The translations under genes were made by a program, and so were the position numbers. Below, one piece after another: positions 888 to 43,554 of a stretch of 64,000 bases of DNA (position 1 is its first letter; each line of letters starts with the position of its first letter). Source of the stretch: Cerasicoccus sp. TK19100 (lineage in GTDB: Bacteria > Verrucomicrobiota > Verrucomicrobiia > Opitutales > Cerasicoccaceae); assembly GCF_027257155.1 (NCBI RefSeq), contig NZ_JAPWDU010000003.1:558001-622000 (forward strand). The letters run 5' to 3'. The notes under the pieces are model-generated. The model ran no database searches. It was not told the DNA's origin and was given only the letters and a program-made list of their open reading frames with translations.

Positions 888-1496
888 TCACTTATCTTCA
901 AGTTTTTCATCAATCCGATCAGTGCCGATCGCATCTTCCGCTAAATCGAGTCCCGCCTTGTTGGGATTCTCCAAAATGTATTCGCGGTAGTGCCGCAACT
1001 CAGCTTCATCCCGAATAATTCGACTGTAAGATTCACTCTGCCACACCGCGCCAGCACGTTCGGACGGCCGATTCAATCGCTTTGCCGTGAAGGATTTCCA
1101 TGAGTGAAGAATGTCCGATAGCGCATGGTTGATGAAGGGAAGCACGATCAGATGCACATGATTCGGCATGATCACCCAATGATCGAGATGGTAGCGTTTG
1201 CCATCGAAATGCTTCCGCGCGTTGGCGACGGTTTCAATCGCTGGCCTTTCGGAAAGCAGGCAACTGCCCATGCCAGCGTCGAGCCAGGTTTCCAAACGGG
1301 CGGGGAAACGCTCATCATAGGCGGCCTGCTGCTGGTCGGTGGTGGGTTGACCATGCTGTGCTAACCAGAGATCGCGTTCTTCGCGCCATTGCCGGAGTTT
1401 GGCGGCTGGGATGGAGTCAGCTAGCCGAAAGGTGACGAAATAGAGGGCGTCGTCCTGCCGTCATTGAGGAAGGTTGCGATGGGTCGTTTCCAGTTC
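888..1496 (-). pseudogene. REP-associated tyrosine transposase (RAYT), nonsense-broken
   Basis: The reading frame encodes a Y1/HUH-type transposase of the RAYT class, which nicks REP palindromes as single-stranded DNA. The metal-binding HxH lies in WVIMPNHVHLIV, and the family's ALYFVTFRLADS and WLDAGMGSCLL segments are present. The conserved N-terminal pattern reads HRNLPQ, then TGA at 1461-1463, then RQDDALYF. Family members have Trp at that position (LPHWRQ), so a TGG-to-TGA change has broken the gene. No ATG, GTG or TTG follows in frame until a TTG at 1295, inside the conserved domain. Inverted REP family 1 copies flank it, the usual arrangement for a RAYT and its substrate. Function is probably lost. 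Confidence 0.85.
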
Positions 1497-30987: not shown

Positions 30988-31040
30988 GCCCTTGGCGCTA
31001 GAATGAATGTCCGTTAGCCCAAGAATAGGCCTACCGGATC

Positions 31041-31223
31041 TTTTCCGAAAGGCTACTGCGGCTTTTTCAAAAAGCCCTATGCTTCTTTTCCGAAAAGCCT
31101 ACTGCTTCTTTTTGAAAAAGCCCTATGCTATGTTTCTCCAACAACACCACTGTTATTGCCTCAACATAAGCAGTGTTGTTGACCCAACACCACTACTGTT
31201 GTTTTCGAAAAGCCTCATTAGGC
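31041..31223. repeat. Degenerate 22-24 nt tandem repeat array C
   Basis: Four units alternate TTTTCCGAAA(A/G)GCCTACTGC and TTTTTGAAAAAGCCCTATGC types, followed by ACAACACCACTGTTAT-type inverted words and a closing TTTTCGAAAAGCC. Each unit is a short palindrome. Non-coding, downstream of the PEP-CTERM gene at 31256. Confidence 0.6.
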
Positions 31224-36089: not shown

Positions 36090-36187
36090 GCTCGAATAAA
36101 GACAGTTGCTCCAGCGATTATATCACCATCGGCCACGGCGAGACATCCCCATCGGTTACGCCAGTACAACCCAATGTGATGACACTA

Positions 36188-36347
36188 CAGATCCTCATGT
36201 GTTGATGCAACAGATCGTAATGTGTTGATGTAACAGATCGTAATGTGTGCTTAAAAACGATCCTAATGCTTTTCCCAAAACGATGGTAATGCGTTTCTTA
36301 AAATGATCCTAATGCTTTTTGAAAAACGATGGGGATCGTTTTTACGG
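36188..36347. repeat. Degenerate 23-bp tandem array, seven units
   Basis: Units of 23-24 nt such as CAGATCGTAATGTGTTGATG, CGATCCTAATGCTTTTCCCA and CGATGGTAATGCGTTTCTTA drift gradually from the first to the last. No open frame. The surrounding stretch 36090-36495 has no gene. Style and period resemble array C at 31041, although the sequences differ. Confidence 0.7.
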
Positions 36348-37543: not shown

Positions 37544-39562
37544 ATGCCTTCGAGCTTTTTTTATCTTGGTGCAGAAAAAACGCAAGAGAATGAATTTATT
37601 CTCAACGGCTTTGCTCAATATGCAGAGCAGAATAATCTGCAGACTTACATTATAGACAGGCCTCTAGGGGAGGACAGATATACCTATGGATATGAAAAGT
37701 CTTTTCTCTTACTAATTCCAAAGCATAAAATTACATTTATTAACTATGGACCGCAATCCATAGACTTCGACGATTACATAGAAGACTTCTTGGAAGACCT
37801 TGGGTCTATATCTGACAAATTCAGGTATAAAGAGTTTATTGGACGGCCTAGAAAATGGCGTAGCGAACTAGTAGCCGATTTTCAGGTTGATTCCACTTCT
37901 TTTGATCCTGAATGTATAATATCCCAAATAGCGTTAACGGAAGGAGAAAAGCAACGTAGCATTGAATTGATAATCTCACTGCTTACGGGAAGCATTAATG
38001 ACATATCTAAGCTTCAAAGGGATATGCCGGAGGCGATACTTGATAAGTTGAAGCAAAAGATACTGCTATTCGATGGTGAGCAAACTCGATTCATTTATGA
38101 TGTTCCAGTGGGTAATGAAGTCATAATACAAGGATTATCAGGAACTGGAAAAACCGAGCTTCTGTTACATAAGCTAAAGGAAATATATACAGCTGATAGT
38201 GAAAGCAGGATTATTTTTACTTGCCATAACAAGATTCTGGCATCGAATTTGAGACAACGTATACCTGAGTTTTTCAACTTCATGAAAGTTGAGGAGCAAA
38301 TAGAATGGGATCATAGACTTTGGTGTATTAGCGCTTGGGGTTCTAGCTATGATAGGAATAGCGGAACGTATAGGTATATTTGTGATAAGTATAACCTGAG
38401 TTTTAACAGGTTCAGCTACACGTATTCATTTGACGACGCCTGTACGCAAGCAATTGCTGAACTAAGTAAAATTGACGGTTTTGATTTCGCATTCGACTAT
38501 GCCTTGATTGATGAGAGTCAAGATTTCCCAGAATCTTTCTTTGAATTAATGAAGCTGGTTACCGCTAAAACAGTATACAGAGCAGGGGATATCTTTCAGA
38601 GTATTTTTGATACAGACATAATAAGTGAAATAGCTCCAGATTTCCTGCTGAGTAAATGCTACAGAACTGATCCCAGAACTCTAATGTTTGCCCATGCGTT
38701 AGGTATGGGTTTGTTTGAGAAAGACAAGCTTCGATGGCTAGAGGACCCAGAATGGCAAGCATGTGGGTACGTTGTAAACAAGGATCCTGCTGATAATAAC
38801 TATACGCTTACGCGAGAACCCCTAAGGCGATTTGAAGACCTTGTTGAAGAAGGAGATTCCAGCGTGGAGATCGTGGAAGACGATCTACTTCTCGCAGCAG
38901 ATTTTGAGTCTGAAATTATCAGTCTACTAGTGCAAATCGTATCTGAGCACCCGACCGTCCAGCCGGATGATATTGCGGTCATATTTATCGATAGAGCTAA
39001 ATACACTTATAATGTTGGTGACAGGTTGTCTATTTCGGTTCCTGAAAGAATGGGCTGGCGCGTAAATAAAGCTTACGAAAGCAAGAGGAAGTCAAAGGGT
39101 GCGTTGTTCGTTAGTAACAAGAACAATGTGAAAGGTCTAGAGTTCCCCTTCGTAATATGTGTCACCCAGAACGTACTTAATACTAGAAGCTACAGAAATG
39201 CTCTCTACATGATGATGACTAGATCCTTCTTGAAGTCATTTCTAATTATATCTAAGCAAAATAATGAGGAGTTTATCGATGCTATAGGTGGCGGATTGGA
39301 ATCAATTAATGAGACCGGAAGTCTTATATTCAAAGAACCCACGCAAGCAGAAAAATCAAAAATTAAAACTACAATACTGCAAGCAGATAAGCATACGTCG
39401 TTCTATGATTATGTATACGAAATATTTGATGAATTTGGAGTCGAAACTAAATATCGAAGCAGATTATACAAGACTGTCGAATCCTTGTTGGGGCCAAAGT
39501 TTGACCATGACTCTATATACGAAGTTATAGCATTTAGCTACTCAAGAATTCAAGAAGGATAG
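37544..39562 (+). CDS. Superfamily 1 (UvrD/Rep-like) helicase, AT-rich
   Basis: 672 residues. Walker A is GLSGTGKT (197-204), Walker B is DESQD (323-327). Later motifs are KCYRTDP (371-377), the motif V-like NNVKGLEFPFVI, and the motif VI-like RNALYMMMTRS. The first 190 residues form an N-terminal domain of unknown type (KHKITFINYGPQSIDFDD); it could be a degenerate nuclease or a regulatory domain. Base composition is far more AT-rich than its surroundings, indicating recent transfer. The downstream 222-aa gene starts 4 nt after its stop, with a good ribosome-binding site inside the helicase end. Likely a defence or DNA-processing helicase. Confidence 0.85.
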   Translation: MPSSFFYLGAEKTQENEFILNGFAQYAEQNNLQTYIIDRPLGEDRYTYGYEKSFLLLIPKHKITFINYGPQSIDFDDYIEDFLEDLGSISDKFRYKEFIGRPRKWRSELVADFQVDSTSFDPECIISQIALTEGEKQRSIELIISLLTGSINDISKLQRDMPEAILDKLKQKILLFDGEQTRFIYDVPVGNEVIIQGLSGTGKTELLLHKLKEIYTADSESRIIFTCHNKILASNLRQRIPEFFNFMKVEEQIEWDHRLWCISAWGSSYDRNSGTYRYICDKYNLSFNRFSYTYSFDDACTQAIAELSKIDGFDFAFDYALIDESQDFPESFFELMKLVTAKTVYRAGDIFQSIFDTDIISEIAPDFLLSKCYRTDPRTLMFAHALGMGLFEKDKLRWLEDPEWQACGYVVNKDPADNNYTLTREPLRRFEDLVEEGDSSVEIVEDDLLLAADFESEIISLLVQIVSEHPTVQPDDIAVIFIDRAKYTYNVGDRLSISVPERMGWRVNKAYESKRKSKGALFVSNKNNVKGLEFPFVICVTQNVLNTRSYRNALYMMMTRSFLKSFLIISKQNNEEFIDAIGGGLESINETGSLIFKEPTQAEKSKIKTTILQADKHTSFYDYVYEIFDEFGVETKYRSRLYKTVESLLGPKFDHDSIYEVIAFSYSRIQEG

Positions 39563-39566
39563 CCAA

Positions 39567-40235
39567 GTGAAGCGATTCAACTTTAATTTATCGGAGATTG
39601 AAGCGAATTATCTCCAGAAGTCATCAATTAGAAGCAAGGAAACATCCATACAGTTTCTCATTGAGTCAATTAAGCTCATGGCTGTTAAGAAGCCTAGCGC
39701 GCACATTACAACCTCCTCACGCATATCATTGATCGTTTCAAATATGAGCAGGCTGTTTTTCAGTCACGGAAACAAAATAGTAAGCGTTAATATTCCATTC
39801 TACATATATCAAGGCGAAGATGGTTACTTACACTTTGAATCAAAGGCAATTGGCGAAGTAACACCATTTCTCACGTCCCTAGCGCTTTCAATTGTAAGTA
39901 GTAGTCATTTTGGGAAGTGGAACTCCATTTGGGATTACATTGATTTATTTGATCTTCATGACGATCAATCTGATACAAGAACCGAGCAATTTCTTATGGA
40001 TTTCAATAATTTCTTCTTTAATTTAATGTGCACGGAAGATGGCTACTTGAGATACGATTACGATAACGACCCCGACCGAGTTGATCCAGAATATCACCCA
40101 GAGCATCACATAGACATATTTTACTCCACTAGTAATACTTTCAAGGTTGGGCTTCGTGGTGCTTTGAACTGTGAAGATGTCATATCAATATTGGACATTG
40201 AATCCAAATGCCACTTCATCCTTCCACCAAATTGA
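39567..40235 (+). CDS. Unrecognised 222-residue partner of the helicase
   Basis: 222 residues beginning at a GTG with AGAAGG just upstream, 4 nt after the helicase stop, so tightly coupled. No signal peptide or membrane segment. The N-terminal 50 residues are helical and charged (MKRFNFNLSEIEANYLQKSS); the middle has alternating strands (IVSVNIPFYIYQGEDGYLHF); an acidic, His-rich stretch follows (YDNDPDRVDPEYHPEHHIDI). No family recognised. AT-rich like the helicase. Possible roles are effector, sensor or helicase adaptor; nothing in the sequence selects between them. Confidence 0.8.
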   Translation: MKRFNFNLSEIEANYLQKSSIRSKETSIQFLIESIKLMAVKKPSAHITTSSRISLIVSNMSRLFFSHGNKIVSVNIPFYIYQGEDGYLHFESKAIGEVTPFLTSLALSIVSSSHFGKWNSIWDYIDLFDLHDDQSDTRTEQFLMDFNNFFFNLMCTEDGYLRYDYDNDPDRVDPEYHPEHHIDIFYSTSNTFKVGLRGALNCEDVISILDIESKCHFILPPN

Positions 40236-40303
40236 ACATAGCCCGCCGGAAGGAACAACACGTGATCAAACGTAGATCTCAAACATCCGCCCCTAACCCA
40301 GCA

Positions 40304-40705
40304 TCACTCCGGCTTCGGCCGCTGCTTCAATCCCTCTTCAATCTGCTCTAGCTCCATTAAGTCCTCGGCGTTGGCGGCGAGGACTTCTTGTTGGCGGCGG
40401 TGGGCGTCGAAGGTTTCGTAGTGGTCTTCGGCGAGTGTGCGGGCTTCCTCGGCGGTCAGGGAACCTAGGCGGTCAAGGACGGGGCGCTCGTTGAATTCGA
40501 GGAGGCGGTCGACATTGCGGTGCCAATAATCGAGGGTGAGGTCTTGGCGCTGTTTGGCGCGTAGCTCGGCCTGCTCCAGGAAGATCACTACGAGGCGGTT
40601 GAGCATATCGATCTCGTCGATGGTGAATTGGGTGGCCGCGCGTGGGGCTATTGGTGTGAAATTGACTTGGGTGCGTGGTGCGAGTTTGGGGTGAGGGCTA
40701 GTCAA
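40304..40705 (-). pseudogene. RhuM-family C-terminal remnant (right copy)
   Basis: Encodes the C-terminal 110 residues of RhuM-family proteins (DEIDMLNRLVVIFLEQAELR, DYWHRNVDRLLEFNE, LTAEEARTLAEDHYETFDAH, EDLMELEQIEEGL). Full-length family members are roughly 330 residues. The frame starts only at a TTG at 40705, a stop lies four codons before that, and a REP array begins at 40721, so the N-terminal two thirds are gone. Directly repeated with the shorter remnant at 35771. Confidence 0.8.
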
Positions 40706-40720
40706 ATAATCTGGTCAAGT

Positions 40721-41027
40721 GGAGGGCGACGCTCCGTCGTCGCCGTTTTCAGATGCATGGGGCGGCGACGACGGAGCGTCGCCCTCCAGTGGGTTTTGAG
40801 ATGGATGAGGCGGCGACGACGGAGCGTCGCCCTCCAGTGGGTTTTCAGATGGATGGGGCGGCGACAATGGAGCGTCGCCCTCCAGTGGGTTTTGAGATGG
40901 ATGAGGCGGCGACGACGGAGCGTCGCCCTCCAGTGGGTTTTGAGATGGAGGAGGCGGCGACGACGGAGCGTCGCCCTCCAGTGGGTTTTGAGATGCATAG
41001 GGCGGCGACGACGGAGCGTCGCCCTCC
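40721..41027. repeat. REP family 2 tandem array, 48-bp period
   Basis: One inverted copy (40721-40744) followed by six direct copies of a 24-nt palindrome with core GGCGACGACGGAGCGTCGCC, starting at 40764, 40812, 40860, 40908, 40956 and 41004, exactly 48 bp apart. The 24-nt spacers are nearly identical too. A decayed copy is at 41072-41095. Adjacent to the RAYT gene at 41107. Confidence 0.92.
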
Positions 41028-41106
41028 AAGATAAACGGAGGGTTGTCTTCCAAGGTTGGTTGAGGGGAGGCGGCGATGATGGAGTGTTGTGCTTTAGGTG
41101 GCGCCG

Positions 41107-41586
41107 CTAGTCGTGCCAGAACAATACATTCAGCTCACCCTGAAATGGCCAATTTTCTGGTGAGTCGACCAAGCCATGGCGCACGGGATTGTTTCTCACA
41201 TAGAGCCACTTTGCGGAATAGCTTTCGCCGGAGCGCAATTGGCGGTCCCATCCGTCCATCTGCCAGATTGGCTGATCCTCCTTGGCTGGCCATTGGCGGG
41301 ATGCGGTTGATTTCCAGTAGGCGACCCATTTCTTCAGCGGAAGGTGATCGACACGCGCTGGCGAACAAAACAGATGAATGTGGTCCGGCATGATGACATA
41401 GCGTCCAACCCGCCAATGGTCAGCCTCTTGCCAGCATTGCCTTAAGCGTTCGTGAGCGGCATGGTTTGCCAGAATTGGTTTTCGCTGAGCGGTGCAGACG
41501 GTCAGGAAGATGATATTTGCCCGATTGAATTGATCATAAATGGGCTGCCGGGCTGGGCGTTTTCGATCTGGGAGAGGTTCCGCCAT
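41107..41586 (-). CDS. REP-associated tyrosine transposase (RAYT), apparently intact
   Basis: 159-residue Y1/HUH transposase. The HxH metal site is in YVIMPDHIHLFCSP; the candidate nucleophile Tyr is in ESYSAKWLYVRNNPVRHGLV, a segment typical of RAYTs. It has no frameshift or nonsense codon, unlike the copy at 888. The gene is flanked by two tandem arrays of REP family 2, which are presumably its substrates. RAYTs are single-copy domesticated transposases whose cellular role is debated. Confidence 0.92.
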   Translation of the reverse strand: MAEPLPDRKRPARQPIYDQFNRANIIFLTVCTAQRKPILANHAAHERLRQCWQEADHWRVGRYVIMPDHIHLFCSPARVDHLPLKKWVAYWKSTASRQWPAKEDQPIWQMDGWDRQLRSGESYSAKWLYVRNNPVRHGLVDSPENWPFQGELNVLFWHD

Positions 41587-41642
41587 TGAGCGACTGAGTG
41601 TTAGGTTTTCTCATCCGATGCACAACACTATTGACCAATATT

Positions 41643-41848
41643 GGAGGGCGACGCTCCGTCGTCGCCGCCGTTGCTGAGCGGTGATTTTCAACGGTGATTA
41701 ATCAACCAAACTAACGTTCGGCGACGACAGAGCGTCGCCCTCCAGAGGTTCAACGGCGATGACAGAGCATCGCCCTCCTCAGATGCAGCGGCGACGACGG
41801 AGCATCACACTCCAGAGGTTCAGCGGCGACGACGGAGCGTCGCCCTCC
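41643..41848. repeat. REP family 2 tandem array, 35-bp period
   Basis: One inverted copy (41643-41666), then four direct copies starting at 41720, 41755, 41790 and 41825, exactly 35 bp apart. Some carry point changes (GACAGAGCATC, GGAGCATCACAC). The last ends 6 nt before the symporter stop codon. Confidence 0.9.
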
Positions 41849-41854
41849 AGGGGG

Positions 41855-43351
41855 CTAGGTGTTCTTACTTTGCGATGCAAAGCGACTACCACCCCAGATG
41901 ATGCCGAGGTTAATCAACACTGCCCAGAGGCCGGCGTGGATGCCCAGGGGTTTGGCGATGACGGCGTCGGGCCAGTAGGCGTGGCCGATGTGGAAGAACA
42001 AGACGATTGCTATGCCCGCGATGAGGCCAGCGAACACGGCGCGGCTATTTACCTTGCGGAAGTGGATGCCGCAGAGGAGGGCGGGGGCGGTTTGGGCGAG
42101 CAGCTCGACCTTGATCTGGATCAGCGCCCAGATGCTTTGGGGGAGGTTGATTGAGAGCAGCACGCAGGCGATCATGACGCCGGTGGAGATTACTTTGCCC
42201 AGCAAAGTAAGTTGCTTTTGGTCGTTGGTTTTGAGGAGGGGGCGGAAGAGGTCTTGCGTGGCCGAGGAGGCGATGGCCAGCAGCACGCTGTCGGCGGTGG
42301 ACATGATGGCGGCCACGACGGCGGCGATGAACACATACACGACCCACTTGGCCGCCGGGTGCGTGGCGGCGTAGTCGTTGAGCACGAGCATGGTGATGCC
42401 CTCGCTGCCGGCTTTGTCGAGGCCGGGGTGCGCGATGTTGCCGAGCAGGCCGATCGCAACCATGAGCAGCGTCGTGACCAGCGGCATAAACACCATGACC
42501 TGCAGCGAGCGGCGGAGCACCTTGGGGCTTTTCGCGGCGTAGATGCGCTGGATGGCCTGCGGGTAAAGCGAGAAGCCGAGCGAAACAATGATCGCCGTGG
42601 AGACCCACGTCAGGCAGCCGCCGAAGTCGAGCGGCTGCCAGAAAGTCGGGCGGACTTCCTGCAGGCGCTCGGCGGCGCCGGTTAGCCCGCCGAGGTTGGA
42701 GAGCGTGGCGGTGAAAATGATTGTGCAGCCGAGGAGCAACAGGATGCCTTGCAAAACATCCGTCCACGCGACGCTGCGCAGCCCGCCGAGGGTTTCGTAG
42801 ATCAGGATGATTATAGCCAGGATCACGATGCCTTGCGCGGGGGAAAGGTAGTCGCCCGCGACGACGGCCGTCATTTGGCCCATGGCCTTGAGGTTGGTGA
42901 TCATGAAGTTGCCCAGCGCGACGATGCCCGAGATGGCGATGGCGGTCGTGAGCCAGCGGTGCTGATAGCGGCGTTGGATGTAGTCGCCCAGCGTGATGAA
43001 GTCGTGCTCGCGGGAGAGCTTTTGCAGCTTGGGCGCGTAGAGCAGGTAAAAGCCGATGCCGGCCATCATGAAGGGCAGGCTGACCAGGTAGGCAAAGCCG
43101 TTGCGATACGCCGCGCCGGCAAAACCGATGAGCGTGTTGCCGCTGTATTGCGTGGCGTAAAGGGTGAGCAGCAGGACGACAAAGCCCAGGCTCCGGCCGC
43201 CGAGAAAGAAGTCCCCCAGCGAGTTTTCCTTGCGGGCAAAACGGCCCGCCACACCAATCGCGATCATGATGCCCAGGTAAACCGCGATTACCGCGATGCC
43301 GCCGGGCCCGAGATTGGAGGGGGTTTCCGAAGCGGCCGCGAGGGGGATCAT
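41855..43351 (-). CDS. Sodium:solute symporter (SSS family)
   Basis: About 498 residues with 13 predicted membrane segments typical of the SSS fold. Family features include FFLGGRSLGFVVLLLTLYAT, QYSGNTLIGFAGAAYRNGFA and GDYIQRRY. The substrate is probably an organic acid, amino acid or sugar; none can be named. The start MIPLAAASE at 43351 overlaps the stop codon of a 68-residue membrane protein by four bases (43348-43351), the arrangement seen for SSS transporters with a small second subunit. Confidence 0.93.
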   Translation of the reverse strand: MIPLAAASETPSNLGPGGIAVIAVYLGIMIAIGVAGRFARKENSLGDFFLGGRSLGFVVLLLTLYATQYSGNTLIGFAGAAYRNGFAYLVSLPFMMAGIGFYLLYAPKLQKLSREHDFITLGDYIQRRYQHRWLTTAIAISGIVALGNFMITNLKAMGQMTAVVAGDYLSPAQGIVILAIIILIYETLGGLRSVAWTDVLQGILLLLGCTIIFTATLSNLGGLTGAAERLQEVRPTFWQPLDFGGCLTWVSTAIIVSLGFSLYPQAIQRIYAAKSPKVLRRSLQVMVFMPLVTTLLMVAIGLLGNIAHPGLDKAGSEGITMLVLNDYAATHPAAKWVVYVFIAAVVAAIMSTADSVLLAIASSATQDLFRPLLKTNDQKQLTLLGKVISTGVMIACVLLSINLPQSIWALIQIKVELLAQTAPALLCGIHFRKVNSRAVFAGLIAGIAIVLFFHIGHAYWPDAVIAKPLGIHAGLWAVLINLGIIWGGSRFASQSKNT

Positions 43352-43554
43352 TGGCCGTCCTCCGTGTTGGCGCATTTATCCCAGCAGCGTGCGTAGGACA
43401 CCGCTACGAACACCGCGTAACCCGCGGACATGGCAATCGTATAAACCGCCCACAGCGGCAGACCGGCAACGGTGGTTTCGCGTCCGCCCAGGAGGAAAAC
43501 CCACGGGGCGGTCAGGGTAATGATGATGAGATGGCCGAGGAGATAACGGAGCAT
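43348..43554 (-). CDS. Small membrane subunit of the SSS symporter (DUF997/DUF485-like)
   Basis: 68 residues with two membrane segments (LLGHLIIITLTAPWVFLL and PLWAVYTIAMSAGYAVFVAV) joined by a short loop. It precedes and overlaps the symporter gene, like YhdT before PanF. The short cytosolic end RCWDKCANTEDGQ has two cysteines. Probably stabilises the transporter. Confidence 0.8.
   Translation of the reverse strand: MLRYLLGHLIIITLTAPWVFLLGGRETTVAGLPLWAVYTIAMSAGYAVFVAVSYARCWDKCANTEDGQ

Follow-up and report, generated by a model that had tools for sequence, protein, structure and literature searches.

The window analysed here, a stretch of 64,000 nucleotides (C3:558001-622000) from the 5.07-Mb, 13-contig genome of Cerasicoccus sp. 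TK19100, contains a gene for a REP-associated tyrosine transposase (RAYT or TnpAREP) with arrays of short palindromes (REPs) on both sides. Along the plus strand, the order is an inverted REP, six direct REPs spaced at 48 bp, the minus-strand RAYT gene, another inverted REP, and four direct REPs spaced at 35 bp. The first block opens with a lead REP (positions 40720 to 40745, plus strand), which has a GGAG tag at its plus-strand 5' end, followed by a 17-nt stretch (40746 to 40762) that recurs along the array, where it forms most of the 48-bp spacer, and by the six direct copies (40763 to 41028, minus strand; starts at 40763, 40811, 40859, 40907, 40955, and 41003), of which the one at 40859 is a varied copy. 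The RAYT gene (41107 to 41586, minus strand) encodes a protein of 159 aa; by its 3' end lies a degenerate extra REP (about 41067 to 41087, minus strand; family D2, 86% of 21 nt) that is absent from the preliminary description of this DNA. Upstream of the RAYT start are the lead REP of the second block (41642 to 41667, plus strand) and four direct copies (41719 to 41849, minus strand; starts at 41719, 41754, 41789, and 41824), the second with a compensated stem (GAT/ATC) and the third with a weakened one (6 of 7 pairs). TRF reports 5.9 copies of 48 bp (93% matches) and 3.8 copies of 35 bp (81%), and the two arrays, inverted lead copies, coordinates, and exact periods given in that description are confirmed. 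The symmetric layout that it also claimed does not hold: both blocks have the same orientation (>>>>< RAYT >>>>>>< on the RAYT strand), so that the arrangement on one side of the gene recurs on the other instead of being mirrored.

Both arrays begin with a REPIN, an inverted pair of REPs with the tags outside. In the 48-bp array, this REPIN consists of the lead REP, the first array copy, and, as its interior, the 17-nt stretch between them; the region (40720 to 40788) folds as a 27-bp hairpin (z, -10.5). The 48-bp unit is made up of the REPIN interior, the REP, and 5 nt, i.e., half a REPIN, which explains why only one inverted copy leads the array. Read along the RAYT strand, the array begins with T/GGAG, and all five internal junctions read CCCACT/GGAG. 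Mean identity is 0.86 for the interior and 0.97 for the REP, so that the earlier view of conserved spacers, with spacer plus REP as the amplified unit, stands for this array; the 35-bp array has two kinds of spacers. Since its REP stems have also diverged, the 35-bp array is probably older than the 48-bp one.

The gene product scores 93.2 bits against the NCBIfam model NF047646 (REP_Tyr_transpos, REP-associated tyrosine transposase; cut-off, 80) and 22.9 bits against Pfam Y1_Tnp, just under the cut-off of 23, while a PHROGs scan added nothing on this protein. Escherichia coli TnpAREP (4er8) is the sole match in a PDB sequence search at E ≤1. It also ranks first, with its REP hairpin, among the 979 Foldseek matches of an AlphaFold model (40 aligned sequences; mean pLDDT, 87.7), with an E value of 1e-8, ahead of ISDra2, IS608, and other IS200-type transposases. 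H69 and H71 of the H69-I70-H71 motif, Y129, and N133 are invariant in 40 RAYT sequences and supply the HUH, Tyr, and Asn residues. The family score and the best fold match thus uphold the earlier identification of a RAYT with its own REPs. The best named relative is the RAYT of Cerasicoccus maritimus (70% identical), from the same genus; only the RAYT and the REPs match between the two loci, and their surroundings differ, which gives no support for vertical descent of the locus.

A second, distant RAYT-like gene is found in the window at 888 to 1295 (minus strand; a 135-aa ORF, 31% identical over the match), and the hairpin search detected no repeated hairpins near it. A C-terminal fragment of a RhuM-family gene (40304 to 40705, minus strand; Pfam profile positions 173 to 251 of 252; PADLOC PDC-S05) has a reading frame that starts 15 bp from the 48-bp array, and its N-terminal part is absent among the ORFs listed there. 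The UvrD-like helicase encoded at 37544 to 39562 (plus strand) is matched by PADLOC as Helicase and as C3a187 NERD+UvrD and may be a defence gene. A CRISPR array was rejected because the 48-bp spacers repeat one sequence and no cas gene is present among the five ORFs scanned against Pfam (the RAYT and its four neighbours). An RNA family was ruled out by the absence of Rfam matches at gathering thresholds in 39500 to 43500, and a phage origin by the absence of matches among 50,697 phage records.

REP copies across genomes

The REP consists of TGGAG, a 7-bp stem (GGCGACG and CGTCGCC) around a 6-nt loop (CTCCGT), and a final G, as folded in the form of single-stranded DNA. Its 20-mer core, with up to 3 mismatches, occurs at 46 places in the 5.07-Mb genome, compared with 0 for the reversed-pattern control; the regular spacing excludes a chance origin of the arrays. 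The tagged pattern, with at most 1 mismatch, has 55 matches (47 of them exact; control, 0), 10 in this locus and 45 outside. That pattern contains GGAG and is therefore no test of the tag, but 23 copies of the tag-free core outside the locus carry GGAG in 19 cases, GGAA in 2, and GAAG and TGAG in 1 each. Among 21 distinct REP sequences, 97.3% of the stem cells are paired, a value partly imposed by the search pattern. In the three stem pairs that the pattern leaves free, 21 cells are changed on both sides, a number reached by 0 of 500 shuffles; two of the five covariation measures are no better than shuffles (both-side-changed pairs are as high in 172 of 500, and further pair types in 486 of 500).

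Among the 45 outside REPs, 30 form 15 inverted pairs, 13 with the tags outside and 2 with the tags inside, and the list of 55 matches contains no run of three direct REPs away from the RAYT. The RAYT is accordingly flanked by inverted REPs that are also dispersed in the genome, which is the arrangement of a REPtron. The arrays differ from the alternating tandem REPs of a BIME-2 in that six and four copies share one orientation, and at the foot of the stem, instead of the GTAG or GTGG of the GTAG REP superfamily, a caller that considers all 256 tetramers finds GGAG (12 copies here). The usual REP copy number is given as >100 (PMC2817692, consulted portion), and the 55 copies in this genome are fewer. 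Four contig ends (in C1, C9, and C10) are no more than about 300 bp from a REP; the assembly may therefore break at clusters of REPs, and the REP counts may be lower bounds.

Several related elements are found in the same genome (G000). A dispersed REP subfamily with a GGT/ACC stem is represented by GGAGGGCGGTGCTTCGTCACCGCC copies; hairpin scans of the five RAYT-like genes found detected no such REPs on their near flanks. Another RAYT (L034 1222-1821, contig C11) has flanking REPINs that share the CTCTGT loop but carry a GGAAC-type tag, and a pair of similar REPs surrounds a stretch without a RAYT match on contig C10 (L026 1501-2139).

The number of REPs follows the presence of the cognate RAYT in two comparisons, which ignore kinship and include several incomplete genomes. 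The first covers 12 genomes of g54, a genus in the same order, in which the REP belonging to that genus's RAYT was searched for with up to 2 mismatches. The four genomes with the cognate RAYT (92 to 100% identical to that of G242) contain 72, 58, 47, and 44 REPs, and the eight without an intact one contain 28, 13, 8, 2, 2, 1, 1, and 0. Among the latter, G133 has a broken cognate RAYT, G094 has a different RAYT, and in G234, with its 28 REPs, no cognate RAYT was found. In the 10 genomes of the window's family, 55 and 31 REPs are present where the RAYT was found and 14, 3, 1, and (in five genomes) 0 elsewhere, with a single control match, in the genome with 3 REPs. The C. maritimus RAYT has an internal stop, yet 31 REPs are present. 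The preliminary description had suggested a genome-wide count of the palindrome and had taken rarity elsewhere, or a distribution independent of the RAYT, as evidence against its being the substrate of this transposase; with 45 of 55 copies outside the locus and their number following the RAYT, neither is the case.

The GGAG tag and guide-linked residues

The GGAG tag, unremarked in the preliminary description, was surveyed with a caller that collects repeated hairpins near each RAYT and reports their most shared 5' tetramer. The order to which the window belongs (45 of 372 genomes with matches), its phylum (86 of 387; the loci are part of the matches listed, with 23 plus 60 new loci taken), and a scan of named genomes (80 loci kept) supplied the loci, together with four distant RAYT-like genes from the genome of the window itself; sampling is mainly of Verrucomicrobiota, other phyla being covered via the named-genome scan alone. 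The 232 loci gave GGAG in 86 cases, GTAG in 39, GTGG in 3, no call in 48, and other tetramers, including shifted GTAG, in the rest. For the tag, residue, tree, and flank counts, RAYTs 93% identical to an earlier one were dropped, which left 207 loci: 66 with GGAG, 41 with GTRG, 54 with another tetramer, and 46 with none. Many of the other tetramers are shifted GTAG (TGTA, TAGC) and some are shifted GGAG (TGGA, GAGG). At 200 random places in the window, the same caller never returned GGAG, GTAG, or GTGG, and a different tetramer came up 10 times. A T is found at position -1 of the tag in 147 of 225 GGAG upstream flanks and in 112 of 126 GTAG flanks; the 225 GGAG flanks include 63 with CT at -2/-1. 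Because a T precedes the tag in both classes, GGAG is in register with GTAG, with the second base changed. Two of the RAYT homologues (L234 1373-1969 and L240 2501-3091) have matches that span 597 and 591 bp, compared with the usual 460 bp or so, perhaps owing to an insertion.

RAYTs with GGAG and those with GTRG fall mostly into separate clades. A first tree of 65 RAYTs (64 from the order and 1 distant outgroup), with tags called from a choice of three and 8 further labels assigned manually, contains a supported GGAG clade of 34 (30 with GGAG and 4 without a call) and a second one of 6 (4 with GGAG and 2 without a call), the latter sister to 4 GTGG/GTAG RAYTs, some of which have almost the same palindrome as the second GGAG clade. 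Two tag changes suffice in this tree. A larger tree, of 106 rows with the guide columns masked, needs five changes, of which three are forced by supported branches and one rests on L141, whose tag call is probably wrong.

The tags named in the text of PMC3733652 are GTAG, GTGG, GYAG, GYRG, GTRG, and GTMG, and GGAG is absent from its main text and from those of PMC8266576 and PMC6006769 (as distinct from figures and supplements), as well as from word starts in the consulted portion of PMC2817692. In the literature searched, RAYT or RAYTs and GGAG do not co-occur as whole words, and papers with both "repetitive extragenic palindrom" and GGAG, among the matches listed and as far as their available text goes, deal with other topics (typing, markers, drug resistance). 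The automatic search in PMC6006769, in the portion consulted, used GTAG/GTGG tags and would therefore miss GGAG; surveys restricted in this way would overlook such REPs. Within the main texts searched, a GGAG guide of RAYTs is undescribed. What is new here is thus the GGAG guide and its protein counterpart; REPtrons and direct tandem REP arrays are already known.

The protein counterpart was sought by a column scan of 64 sequences from the order, and three columns were found to distinguish the two GGAG clades from the rest. At position 26, the others have Y (22 of 22 with a residue there), and the GGAG clades have I, V, Q, L, or F, and Y once. At position 115, H is found in 24 of 24 others, and mostly T or R, with V and S once each and H twice, in the GGAG clades; at position 116, V, L, or I (24 of 24) is matched by Q/E or F/Y. 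Swapping the sister clades yields 0 columns at the same level. Setting the largest clade (clade A) against all the rest yields four columns, compared with three for the guide split, so lineage alone can produce such columns and only the sister-swap control favours the guide. In the AlphaFold model, residue 26 opens strand beta1 (26 to 32), and residues 115 and 116 belong to beta4 (113 to 116). E. coli TnpAREP is reported to contact GTAG through regions that comprise beta1, the surroundings of beta4, and the C-terminal extremity (PMC8266576, in part). RAYT residue 115 aligns with H101 of 4er8, which is discussed among the guide residues in the consulted part of PMC6006769. The W94, Q95, D100, and R104 pattern of TnpA_Y1 subclasses 2.5 and 2.7 (same source) corresponds to W108, Q109, D114, and R118 here; among subclasses 2.1 to 2.8, none was assigned.

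A rule for position 116, derived from the order and fixed before the held-out result was known, holds for all 43 loci of the order. Of the held-out loci that could be scored, 59 of 63 (37 GGAG, 22 GTRG) agree with it; 1 more locus was unscorable. The held-out set comprises phylum genomes outside the order and loci from named contigs, a few of them Opitutales by title but <93% identical to the training RAYTs, and the residue test left out 100 of the 207 loci (46 without a tag call and 54 with another tetramer). Ranked by their held-out predictions, position 115 comes first (58 of 63), 116 second (57 of 63), 111 third, 113 fourth, and 26 fifth (46 of 59), against a median position of 0.57 and 39 of 64 for calling every locus GGAG. 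Inspection of one misfit, L141, shows GGAG REPs beside its RAYT, hence the doubt about its tag call; L209 is a genuine exception, a GGAG RAYT with Y26, H115, and L116, and L198 and L268 are exceptional GTAG RAYTs with R116 but H115. Kinship accounts for part of this fit. An independent-pairs test along supported branches provides three pairs, in which residue 116 goes the same way in one, the opposite way in none, and shows no difference in two; this is not significant, and significance is unreachable with only three pairs.

Judging from the sequences, the protein seems to have changed along with the guide. We lean slightly toward the view that a large RAYT clade in Verrucomicrobiota and allied phyla reads GGAG and that the change between GT[AG]G and GGAG has occurred at least twice, its two main cases affecting the same guide-facing positions (an aromatic residue to an aliphatic one in beta1, and His-aliphatic to Thr/Arg-Gln/Glu or to Arg/His-Phe/Tyr in beta4). 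If so, such switches in nature would reveal a residue code that an HUH nuclease uses to choose its guide tetranucleotide. E. coli TnpAREP is reported to tolerate no change of GTAG, and attempts to alter its cut site that way failed (PMC8266576, in part); a natural GGAG clade and a GTGG/GTAG sister acting on almost the same palindrome would make guide recognition testable by swapping two to three residues.

Origin of the tandem arrays

We interpret the locus, with a probability of roughly 0.8, as a REPtron in which a domesticated single-strand transposase is accompanied by its own REPs with a GGAG guide and predicted cutting at these elements, the arrays having grown later by slippage or unequal exchange. 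At the level of sequence, the identity of the gene, the REPs on both flanks, the dispersed copies, the stem covariation, and the register of GGAG with GTAG are established. The RAYT would bind the single-stranded REP hairpin, read GGAG through beta1 and beta4, and cut at the CT adjoining the tag, and it may have spread REPINs through the genome. Less firmly, the arrays could have arisen afterwards from one hairpin-rich REPIN per flank by replication slippage or unequal exchange; growth on each flank separately would make the differing periods two events, not a code.

The known REPtrons of E. coli, Stenotrophomonas, Marinomonas, and Pseudomonas likewise combine a REP-flanked HUH-Y1 nuclease gene with dispersed REPINs, and the REPs of Stenotrophomonas are similarly perfect palindromes directly behind a 5' tetranucleotide. 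One third of the RAYTs examined in PMC2817692 (in part) touch a BIME. The locus described here differs in its guide (GGAG, not GTAG or GTGG), in some residues of beta1 and beta4, and in having direct tandem REPs in place of alternating ones. Pseudomonas fluorescens SBW25 has direct REP arrays with even spacing, and three of its RAYTs each adjoin a REPIN cluster (PMC3116915); the consulted portion of that paper does not assign the plain direct arrays to RAYT loci, whereas here such arrays lie on both sides of the gene. The GTAG families, including GTAG-20 of Opitutus terrae (PMC3733652), resemble the present REPs as short tagged stem-loops in a verrucomicrobial relative, as singleton clusters repeated with flanking DNA, and in stems that vary with compensation.

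Tandem arrays are a recurrent secondary feature of the REPtron, and the earlier suggestion that they are unusual next to a RAYT is not supported, given both these precedents (PMC3116915, in part; PMC3733652) and a tally of 121 RAYT loci with tagged REPs, from which RAYTs 97% identical to an earlier one, including that of L038, had been dropped. At least three consecutive REPs of the same orientation occur on a flank in 23 of the 121 loci (31 flanks, not all evenly spaced), and 98 loci have no run of three. Alternating REP arrays are present on other flanks. Runs on both flanks are found in eight loci: L031 (this locus), L156, L157, L194, L223, L244, L279, and L281. The two periods differ also in L223 (36 and 45 to 46) and L279 (88 and 33).

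How such arrays grow can be followed at one orthologous site with alignable flanks in four genomes (L037, L038, L039, and L040), whose RAYTs are 92 to 100% identical to that of G242. The site has a single REPIN in L039 and 14.1 REP units of 61 bp in L038, where a higher-order period of 243 bp is matched at 98%, compared with 97% for the 61-bp unit; in L037 there are 7.1 units of 36 bp, 99% alike, each of which contains only half a REP, and in L040 the contig ends there. The 36-bp kind of unit is also found on the other flank, in 3.8 copies in L038 and 2.6 copies in L039. With one REPIN to 14 units at a single orthologous site, REP arrays come and go readily. That the L037 array grew although its units lack a complete hairpin points to slippage or unequal exchange.

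It is possible, and on the whole unlikely, that the RAYT itself makes the arrays by cutting at successive CT/GGAG sites, so that a circle of one REP plus spacer is released and re-inserted beside another REP and the period is the distance between cuts. The uniform CCCACT/GGAG junctions of the 48-bp array, its T/GGAG start at the RAYT-proximal end, the same CCCACT/GGAG junction in the 61-bp array of L038, and the T and CT that often precede GGAG (see above) would all fit such a process, as would the confinement of listed direct runs in the window's genome to the RAYT locus; moreover, cutting of REPs at CT is reported for other TnpAREPs (PMC8266576, in part). One RAYT cut per unit, however, would hardly yield the seven nearly identical half-REP units of L037, nor their counterparts on the other flank in L038 and L039, and it is the half-REP array that led us to rank this idea lower. 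The 243-bp period of L038 hints at the duplication of blocks, and direct arrays of three copies with an 82-bp period also occur on contigs without the RAYT (G151:C63 and G254:C203).

We consider it improbable that the arrays are selected for a host function, e.g., as a terminator or attenuator of the RAYT or as a gyrase site, that would set their spacing. Hairpins do lie directly upstream and downstream of the RAYT, and such roles of REPs and BIMEs are reported elsewhere (PMC2817692, in part; PMC3733652), but period and copy number vary between the flanks and between relatives, and no run of three is present in 98 of the 121 loci. The ORFs of 160 aa (plus strand) and 112 aa (minus strand) that cross the 48-bp array might suggest a coding tandem repeat of 16-residue units open on both strands, a reading we reject because any stop-free unit stays open when its length is a multiple of 3, the periods of 35 bp here and 61 bp in L038 are not such multiples, and the unit is the same palindrome that is dispersed in the genome. 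Tandem repeats of another kind, with a 23-bp period and differing units, are found in the window at 31039 to 31203 and 36173 to 36332.
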